This document shows, one piece after another, positions 11,310-62,194 of a DNA stretch of 64,000 nt. The notes under the pieces were generated by a model. It was not told the DNA's origin. It saw only the letters and a list, made by a program, of their open reading frames with translations, and ran no database searches. The DNA is from Desulfurococcales archaeon. Its GTDB lineage: Archaea > Thermoproteota > Thermoprotei_A > Sulfolobales > NBVN01. The DNA is taken from positions 226,928-290,927 of the forward strand of contig JAGDWD010000007.1 of NCBI GenBank assembly GCA_023255955.1, read 5' to 3'. A program made the position numbers and the translations under genes. Numbering within the stretch: position 1 is the stretch's first letter; each line of letters opens with the position of its first letter.

Positions 11310-11768
11310 CGTTCCGGAGGATCTCGGGAACCCGGAGAGGTATACAACGTTAGAGGGCTGTGTTATTAGCAGTAGATCGACATCCGCTTCCTTAATAATT
11401 TTAAGTACCTTCTCTAGTCTCCAGCTCGTAACATGTCACCATAGATTTCATAGCCTATAGCTATATATGCCTGTGAGACCTACATTAACCTTCCAGTCCT
11501 AAGAAATAAAATTCTCAATAGCGAGTCTGTACATCCTCGGATACTTACCCACATTAGTTTACGTTCACAATATTTAGAGGTTTCCGCATTACTCTACAGA
11601 GCTTTCGAGGTTCTGCGGGACGTGGGTAGTAGGTAAGTCTAATTGCATGAGATCCGCATCTACTGCCAACTTACCTAGGTCCGCAGCTTTACCCCCACAG
11701 CTCAGCGAGACAGGTAGAATGGGAGTTATAGACCCGTCCATAGCAAATAGCAAAGAAGCGGTCCGAGG

Positions 11769-11863
11769 TGGGCCCGCGGGGATTTGAACCCCGGACCACG
11801 GGGACTTCCGCCGTATGAGGTGGGACCCGAACCCCGCATTCTGCCAAGCTAAACTACGGGCCC
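11769..11863 (-). tRNA. tRNA-Pro (CGG) with a ~21-nt intron at position 37/38
   Basis: Acceptor GGGCCCG/CGGGCCC+A73; T-arm CGGGG-TTCAAAT-CCCCG; anticodon stem CGGGG/CCCCG, loop TTCGGG^T interrupted by TCCCACCTCATACGGCGGAAG. Confidence 0.88.
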
Positions 11864-29859: not shown

Positions 29860-30055
29860 CCGTTTGTCCCTAGATGCTTGTTGATGCGGGTTTATGTTTG
29901 TTTATTGTGTCTAGGGACTTCCACCTCGTCCACAGGGTTTTCCCTATCCCTGTGGGTCGTGGGTGGTGTTCGTCCCGAACGGCATGCGGGACACATCTAG
30001 GTCTAGTCCTGAGAGGCTTGGAGCGTTGCTCCCATCACCTCCCAGGGCTCTGAAG
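29860..30055 (-). ncRNA. IS605-type right-end / TnpB guide-RNA (omega/reRNA)-like region, copy 1
   Basis: Homologous by eye to 55350-55545; stems CCACAGGG/CCCTGTGG, GTTCG/CGAAC, GTCCCTAGA/TCTAGGGAC, GGAGC/GCTCC; overlaps and follows the tnpB 3' end. Confidence 0.65.
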
Positions 30056-30260
30056 AGTAGGTTCCAGCAAGCAACTACATCTCTATGCCATAGCTCACCA
30101 CCAACACTACACCTACCAATACGGGAGCTGTTACTGTAAACGATGTGTGTCTTGTGTACTGGGCATACCTTAGATGTGTTCTTAGGGTCTACGTAGATTA
30201 CGGGTACACCAAACTCCCTAGCTTTCTCCTCAATAGCTAGCTGAATACCTCTAAAACACG
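29944..30260 (-). pseudogene. tnpB: Decayed tnpB (IS605 OrfB), C-terminal zinc-finger/RuvC-III fragment only
   Basis: Minus-strand translation RGIQLAIEEKAREFGVPVIYVDPKNTSKVCPVHKTHIVYSNSSRIGRCSVGGELWHRDVVACWNLLFRALGGDGSNAPSLSGLDLDVSRMPFGTNTTHDPQG*; in-frame TAA just upstream at the fusion point. Confidence 0.9.
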
Positions 30261-30523
30261 CTTAGTAGCTAATACCAAAGCCCCACACAAACCTCCCCAA
30301 AAACACCAACTACAAAACATAAAACAAAACCCTATAAATCCAACAAACACCAACCAAAAAAAATAAAACAGCCCCGAGCTATTTCACATGAAAATTCTCT
30401 CGCTATCTTCGACAACAAGAAGTTGATTAGTTACCCTAGGAGAATTCAAAGCAGGCTTACGTCTTCCTCAGCAACTCCTGATGTAGTCTAGTCCTTTTAA
30501 AGAATACTACATCACATAGCATT

Positions 30524-54060: not shown

Positions 54061-55323
54061 ATGAGCGGTAAAGTTAGCTATTTACAATGGATGTTACAGG
54101 TTCTCAAGAACTCTGTCGAGCTTGGTGGGTTCCCGGAGGAGGTCTACCACATACTCAGTAAACCCGAAAGAGTTCTAATGGTCAGCATACCGGTAAGGAT
54201 GGATAATGGGAAGATAGTGGTGTTTGAAGGCTATAGGGTCCAGCATAACAGTGCTCTAGGGCCCTACAAGGGAGGTATAAGGTTCCATCCTGAGGTAGAC
54301 CTCGAGACAGACATGGCTCTAGCTCTTGGGATGACCCTAAAGAACTCACTAAATGGCTTACCCTACGGCGGAGGTAAGGGTGCTGTAAAGGTAGATCCCA
54401 AGAAGCTGTCTCAGACCGAGCTGGAGAGACTGAGTAGGGGATACGCTAGAGCTATCGCACCGTTAATAGGGGACCTAGAAGACATTCCTGCTCCTGACGT
54501 CGGGACCAACCCGCAGATAATGGCCTGGATGGTTGATGAGTACAGCAAACTCAAAGGACGTAACGTACCTGGAGTCTTCACAGCGAAGCCTCCTGAGCTA
54601 TGGGGTAACCCTGTGAGGCTGTACTCCACAGGCTTCGGGACAGCCGTCGCGGCTAAGGTCGCAGCAGAGAAGTATCTAGGAAGATTTGAAGGGCTGACTG
54701 TATCAGTTCACGGCTTCGGGAATGTGGGTCAGTACGCTGCCTACTATGCTGCTAAGTGGGGAGCTAAGGTCGTTGCTGTGAGCGACACGTCGGGAACTGT
54801 CTACGATCCTAACGGAATAGACGTCGAGCTTGCTATGAAGGTGAAGGAAAGCACTGGGAAGGTCATTAACTACCCGAGAGGTGAGAAGCTTGACCCAGAC
54901 GCCTCCCTCTACGTAGACTGCGACGTGCTCATGCCTTCTGCTATAGAAAACGTTATTAGAGCGGACAACGTCCACAAGGTCAAGGCTAAGGTCATTTCTG
55001 AGGGAGCTAACGGTCCGACTACCCCGGAGGCGGAGAAGGTACTCTACGAGAGAGGAGCCGTCATAGTCCCCGACATAGCTGCTAACGCAGGCGGTGTCGT
55101 AATGTCCTACCTAGAGTGGGTAGAGAACCTTCAGTGGTACTGGTGGAGCGAGGAGGAGACACTCAGCAGGATTAAGACGTTAATGGAGAACAACATCAAG
55201 AGGCTGATAGCGAAGTACGAGTCCTTGAGGTCAGAGAAAGGACCCGTAACAATGAGAAACGCAGCGTTCGTACTGGCCGTAGAAAGAGTATATAAAGCCA
55301 TGAAGCTCAGAGGCTGGATCTAA
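54061..55323 (+). CDS. gdhA: Glutamate dehydrogenase
   Basis: [50 protein letters not shown]. Confidence 0.97.
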
Positions 55324-55349
55324 CCAGTAAATAATTTTTGTTCTATATT

Positions 55350-55545
55350 CCGTTTGTCCCTAGATGCTCGTTGATATGGGTTTATGTTCGTTCATTACAT
55401 TTAGGGACTTCCACCTTGCCCACAGGGATCTACTTATCCCTGTGGAGTCATGGGTGGCGTTCGTCCCGAACGGCACGCGGGACACATCTACGTACAGCCC
55501 TACGGGGCTTGGAGCGTTGCTCCCATCACCCCGCAGAGCTTACAC
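55350..55545 (-). ncRNA. Orphan TnpB guide-RNA (omega/reRNA)-like element, copy 2, no tnpB
   Basis: Near-ungapped homology to 29860-30055 with conserved stems; no zinc-finger/RuvC coding region attached. Confidence 0.6.
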
Positions 55546-55577
55546 TCCTCCAGCAATTAAAATACCCTATACGACCC

Positions 55578-55589
55578 TAATAAACTTTT
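55578..55589 (-). promoter_or_regulatory. Candidate TATA box driving the orphan element on the minus strand
   Basis: Minus-strand AAAAGTTTATTA; predicted TSS ~25 nt downstream (~55553), close to the start of homology. Confidence 0.45.
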
Positions 55590-55720
55590 CTGCCCGCCTT
55601 CTATTCTATTAATATGACGAAAACACGGCTCTAGGGCCATCAAACACTGTCACACTCAGACCTTCAGCTTAGCCATAAGCTTTTTTGCCTAGCTTAATTA
55701 GTTAATCCGAGGTTGAGAAC

Positions 55721-61852: not shown

Positions 61853-62194
61853 GGTCTCACCTGAAGATCTCCAAAGGCTTTACTTGTCCCTCACTTAAAT
61901 ATCTTCAACAAGGAAACCAGCATATAGCGAAGAATCGTTCCATTGATAGTTACTAGAAATAACGTTCACAGTTTTCAGTTCCTATTTAAGTGGTGAGAGC
62001 GACTCAATAGCCATCTACAACTTCACAAGAGTACCTAACCTCTCTAGGTGAAGTAGAAGTCTCTAGACGCGATGAGTAAACACGAACCAGCAGAGATGAG
62101 CATCTAGGGGTGGGTGGGACTTATGTAAAACAATATATTTCTGGATATTTCTGGCGATAGGTTAAGGTTTTGCCTCACAGAAAATCTCTGAAAG

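Follow-up and report, generated by a model that had tools for sequence, protein, structure and literature searches.

The segment from 55352 to 55593, on the minus strand of the 64,000-nucleotide stretch analysed here (the window), is by its sequence a complete 242-nt non-autonomous element of the IS607 family with GG at either side. We consider it most probable, at roughly two chances in three, that this element is a mobile guide-RNA gene bearing its own putative promoter and served in trans by the TnpA and TnpB of a relative. Sequence comparisons suggest that about 40 such protein-less mini-elements depend on the nuclease and the transposase of a full-size relative.

The element beside gdhA and its copies

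The left end of the element, GCAGAAAAGTTTATTAGGGTCGTATAGGGTATTTTAATTG, lies at 55593 and its right end, ACAAAC, at 55352, both as in the other bounded copies of the genome. This left end can be aligned with that of an intact IS607 element elsewhere in the genome, and therefore the promoter-like box found there belongs to the element's own left end. Immediately after the left end come the final ~59 codons of tnpB, then the omegaRNA and, last, the right end. The tnpB tail of 59 codons is an open frame lacking a start, and as it is all that is left of the protein genes, the element encodes neither TnpA nor TnpB and is non-autonomous. The putative crossover dinucleotides are the GG at 55594-55595 on the left (GG in 35/35 bounded copies) and the GG at 55350-55351 on the right (GG in 32 of the 35, AG in 3). 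By analogy with ISXfa1 (PMC10711439), the right-flanking base would be assigned to the RNA scaffold.

A search of the genome (1.64 Mb, 13 contigs) with a 209-nt BLAST query gave 39 matches, mostly near full length and with 75-91% identity, and a covariance model of the RNA, R1, gave 49; 32 of the copies are TnpB-less elements. Only nine matches to the TnpB domain PF07282 were found in the same genome, four of them in open frames of more than 350 aa, so the element beside gdhA belongs to a family of many copies, most of which have no tnpB. The first-pass annotation had called it an orphan guide-RNA locus; it is indeed of the omegaRNA type and separated from tnpB, but far from single. All 35 bounded copies start directly after GG and end in ACAAAC (ACAAAT in one), and a crossover at GG is the signature of IS607 elements (PMC10711439). 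When the bounded copies were lined up, the flank positions past the GG held little information, and a search of the left flanks for a TAM gave nothing informative beyond the GG.

A second copy within the window lies at 29862-30372 on the minus strand. The segment at 29860-30049 matches the gdhA-side copy as had been reported (191 nt, 84.8% identity, one gap, E 7.6e-57 within the window). This copy had been taken for a decayed tnpB; instead it is an internally deleted IS607 derivative of 511 nt, with its own left end, a C-terminal tnpB remnant longer than that of the gdhA-side element, and an omegaRNA. The frame difference between the two had also been read the wrong way round, since the 1-nt deletion is in the 29862 copy and the gdhA-side element keeps its tail open. 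In a tree of omegaRNAs the latter falls, with support 0.99, into the genome's second IS607 subfamily, and its left end resembles the first subfamily, and the element may thus be a chimera of the two. R1 also has a weak match at 61926-62115 on the plus strand (E 1.3e-11); this copy of the RNA has no canonical right end and is probably a decayed element. Degenerate similarity to the element was also seen at 11533-11715 on the minus strand (nhmmer E 1.2e-9), adjoining a tRNA gene at 11769-11863.

One intact autonomous copy (L037) is found on contig C2, which is not the contig of the window. It encodes a serine-recombinase TnpA recognised as NF033518 transpos_IS607 with 239.7 bits (cut-off 110), and the element beside gdhA shares its ends with this element. 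The TnpB of L037 has 435 aa and an intact RuvC triad, D191, E279 and D365, invariant in 12 homologues. A phmmer search of PDB with this TnpB alone gave no match, and a TnpB profile gave weak matches to Cas12f and TnpB. Contig ends hold parts of one or more additional autonomous copies. An intact TnpB-like protein, on whose presence the earlier reading hinged, is therefore encoded in the genome, and the supply of guide RNA in trans is plausible on sequence grounds. The same genome has two IS605-type elements, each with a Y1 TnpA and a 424-aa TnpB (C9:6733-8240 and C12:353205-354712); these transposases and their TnpBs were set aside because they belong to a different family.

One mini-element of 241 nt (L038:4001-4241) splits a gene similar to members of the aspartoacylase/succinylglutamate desuccinylase family. 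One half of the gene lies on either side of the element, and removing the element together with one GG nearly restores the reading frame. The frame is, however, shifted by one additional G within a GGGG run, and the site therefore does no more than suggest precise excision.

Structure and constraint of the omegaRNA

The omegaRNA scaffold, to which R1 aligns over its full length (1-201), runs from 55352 to 55553 on the minus strand and scores 215.7 bits, with the sequence itself being part of the R1 training set. All three of the stems named in the first-pass annotation are present on this strand. The hairpin GGAGC-AAC-GCTCC at 55511-55523 caps helix 1; the hairpin GTCCCG..CGGGAC at 55463-55483 (55463-55468 pairing with 55478-55483) carries the strongest compensatory changes, A-U to U-A and G-C to C-G; and the hairpin CCACAGGGAT..ATCCCTGTGG occupies 55420-55445 (55420-55429 with 55436-55445). 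The terminal stem of the right end, helix 6 (55356-55408), is formed by 55398-55408 pairing with 55356-55366. The predicted fold has a free energy of -87.3 kcal/mol (z = -6.1).

The conservation of the stems, proposed earlier from two copies, is borne out by compensatory changes across the genome. RNAalifold applied to 35 copies gave 38 pairs, 11 of them with changes on both sides; 97.4% of the cells were paired, against 28-48% when the partners were slid, and none of 500 shuffles reached either this percentage or the covariation score. With the TnpB-less copies only (31 distinct sequences) the results were again 97.4% of cells paired, against 38-48% when slid, and 11 two-sided pairs, and none of 300 shuffles was as good on any measure. 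Mini-elements of two related genomes, G008 and G005, gave similar folds de novo, as did autonomous copies from named archaea. When either type A copies (the elements of 255 to 316 nt) or the G008 copies were taken alone, the number of two-sided pairs was not above that of the shuffles; the paired percentage and the paired cells were above. Mutual information recovered the known pairs plus one extension, and no clear pseudoknot of the kind present in ISXfa1 and ISDra2.

The tnpB tail is broken by frameshifts or stops in 28 of the 32 TnpB-less copies. Because the fold is kept where these tails are broken, it is the RNA and not the protein that is under preservation. Among 25 type A copies the substitution identity is equal in the left end and in the omegaRNA (0.865 and 0.867), and gaps make up 14% of the left end versus 0.8% of the omegaRNA. 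The structure may nevertheless be maintained in the transposing source copies alone, rather than in each copy. Two copies (L042:4001-4197 and L043:3982-4178, at C12:390404 and C6:9309) have an identical omegaRNA in which hairpin 3 mixes both stem variants, which suggests gene conversion between copies. Rfam gave no match to 55300-55650 up to E 10; at gathering thresholds its only matches in the whole window are two tRNAs.

Promoter-like box, guide and relatives

The box AAAAGTTTATTA reported earlier is found on the minus strand and stands before the RNA, as had been proposed; it is not outside the element, since the element reaches 55593 and its 5' end is a real left end. The TATA-like box in this left end, GAAAAGTTTATTAGGG at 55575-55590 on the minus strand, scores 10.8 bits against a matrix derived from upstream regions of the same genome, by which random 100-nt stretches reach 8.7 bits at 95% and 11.7 bits at 99%. 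Many of the type A boxes score 12-14 bits with the same matrix. Most type A copies, for example L036:3001-3294, have an extra segment of ~55 nt between the left end and the omegaRNA that bears a strong TATA-like box, GTTAAGCTTATTAACT; the segment is missing in L056 and L044, and a source for it was not found.

In most type A copies the box stands ~30 nt before helix 1 in spite of the varying length of the elements. Among 21 aligned copies from relatives, it is mostly 30-31 nt before helix 1 in the mini-elements of G005 and G030, and 31-35 nt, where found, in those of G008. In the element beside gdhA the distance is ~40-45 nt, farther than the 30 nt of type A, and in a few copies the box is lost. 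No TATA-like box precedes helix 1 in copies with tnpB upstream. Since archaeal start sites lie ~25 nt past the box, the predicted transcript would have its first nucleotide at the 5' edge of the RNA or shortly ahead of it. Full-size copies in relatives have the same box in their left end before tnpA, indicating that the promoter would be inherited from tnpA, at least outside type A. The box beside gdhA likely corresponds to the tnpA promoter of the autonomous element.

The guide predicted from the anatomy of the element, AATATAGAACAAAAATTATT, is the host sequence just past the GG (55330-55349, minus strand), at the 3' end of gdhA and antisense to it. With up to 3 mismatches allowed, the genome contains only this one match to it. 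For the guides of other copies, 25 near matches were found in the 0.34 Mb examined, none of them preceded by GG.

R1 matches occur in 22 of the 31 genomes of the family (36 matches in G005 and 38 in G008) and in 112 of the 197 genomes of the order. In other archaea most of 61 related TnpB loci, mainly from Desulfurococcales and other Thermoproteota, have an R1 match at the 3' end of tnpB. In the omegaRNA tree the mini-elements of G008 cluster with the autonomous copy of G008, and part of those of G005 with the autonomous copy of G005. This grouping by genome favours separate origins, and from these sequences the mini-elements of related genomes were apparently formed separately. Gene conversion could instead explain why mini and full-size copies group together within a genome. 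The omegaRNA is also present in three genomes (G020, G010 and G028), one of them 98% complete, in which a cognate TnpB was not detected; these RNAs may be relics or may be served by another TnpB. At the site beside gdhA, four congeners read directly have gdhA adjoining tldD with no element between them, and a fifth, G008, has a longer spacer in which the element is absent; tldD of G005 lay outside the stretch read.

Perhaps promoter-bearing mini-elements of this kind are mobile guide-RNA genes that arose repeatedly in Thermoproteota, with the omegaRNA's 5' edge fused in each lineage to the promoter of that lineage's own IS607 left end. They would exploit TnpA and TnpB in trans and each copy would supply its own retention guide, with one nuclease serving dozens of them per genome. 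We regard this broader proposal as evenly balanced.

Proposed mechanism, alternatives and known systems

The element beside gdhA is a miniature derivative of an archaeal IS607 transposon that lost tnpA and nearly all of tnpB and kept both ends, a promoter-like box in the left end and a complete guide RNA. The box would drive a short transcript from near the 5' edge of helix 1, past the right end and into host DNA, so that the guide of each copy would be its own flank. TnpB from the intact element on another contig would load the RNA of the mini-element, and TnpA acting in trans would excise the mini-element by a GG x GG crossover. The resealed site would then present a GG next to the sequence matching the guide, TnpB would cut there, and the element would be restored by repair from a chromosome that had kept it. 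Transcription, loading by TnpB, cutting and copy-back repair we infer by analogy with ISXfa1 and other TnpBs (PMC10711439, PMC10278001).

An alternative explanation is that the element is inert or merely mobile: TnpA would move this internal-deletion derivative in trans, and its omegaRNA would be no more than passive right-end DNA. The two ends that TnpA needs are present, the site is free of the element in congeners, and some genomes have copies and no detectable cognate TnpB, all of which would fit. However, ~200 nt remain essentially indel-free in copies with a broken protein frame, compensatory changes occur in helices 150-200 nt from the end, and the spacing of the TATA-like box to helix 1 is kept in three lineages. 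Passive DNA predicts none of these, which counts against this explanation, and we consider it possible but rather unlikely. Very unlikely, in our judgement, is that the stems are conserved as a DNA site which TnpA recognises at the right end, and not as part of an RNA. The terminal stem does adjoin the right end and is nearly invariant, but IS607 moves as a double-stranded circle with the crossover at GG (PMC10711439), the helices with compensatory changes stand well away from the end, in the region of the tnpB 3' end that omegaRNAs occupy, and the TATA-like box tracks the first helix.

The first-pass annotation had also raised a domesticated RNA-guided regulator of gdhA, or of some other target, with the flank as guide. 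This reading has in its favour the antisense position of the guide at the gdhA 3' end. The lack of a second genome match for the guide argues against a regulator, and a search of 0.34 Mb found no second target preceded by GG for the guides of other copies. Moreover, the element belongs to a multicopy mobile family, the insertion is absent in congeners, and the full-length cognate TnpB is by its sequence not nuclease-dead, the three catalytic residues being kept. We therefore regard a regulator as extremely improbable. Stand-alone omegaRNA loci of OMEGA systems and TldR offer a parallel, in that a guide RNA is separated from, or works with, a TnpB-like protein. TldR combines a nuclease-dead protein with promoter-matching guides, neither of which was seen for the element beside gdhA.

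The mobile guide-RNA gene that we favour also resembles IS607 transposons (ISXfa1; NF033518 TnpA), with which it shares the GG x GG crossover and a right-end guide RNA. Those transposons have a serine-recombinase TnpA with TnpB downstream, whereas our element encodes neither and would depend on a full-size relative. The omegaRNA or reRNA of IS607 elements (ISXfa1, PMC10711439; RAGATH-18, PMC11061315) is likewise a structured right-end RNA with its guide in the flank, and in a bacterial survey of RAGATH-18, 64% of the RNAs were next to an IS607 TnpB and 36% were not (PMC11061315). The scaffold described here overlaps the coding end of tnpB, whereas the RAGATH-18 reRNA is described as independent of coding sequence; unlike the RAGATH-18 and ISXfa1 RNAs, it has been re-joined to a promoter-like left end. 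It showed no membership of RAGATH-18, with no match to any Rfam family up to E 10. Staphylothermus marinus has 14 MITEs of ~260 nt whose sequence resembles the region upstream of IS607-family ORFs (PMC2678158). Compared by description, these resemble our elements in size, copy number, the similar kind of archaeon and the link to IS607-family ORFs, but they are described as inverted-repeat MITEs and a guide RNA is not mentioned (PMC2678158).

IS607 elements, TnpB guide RNAs and archaeal MITEs are thus each already known. In the literature searched, whose coverage left out most subscription papers, we found no description of omegaRNA-bearing mini-elements, nor of the combination reported here, in which numerous mini-elements from several lineages lack TnpB and combine a promoter-like box with a guide RNA showing compensatory changes. 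Provided that these RNAs are transcribed and taken up by the nuclease, TnpB in these archaea would be a public good, one gene serving some 40 distinct guides, and non-autonomous elements would gain the retention advantage ascribed to TnpB. This would explain why such tiny elements retain a 200-nt RNA, and would provide a natural case of a single nuclease with many guides scattered over the chromosome and no array. This RNA family, which is absent from Rfam, offers dozens of natural variants per genome and would be useful for mapping what TnpB needs in its guide RNA.
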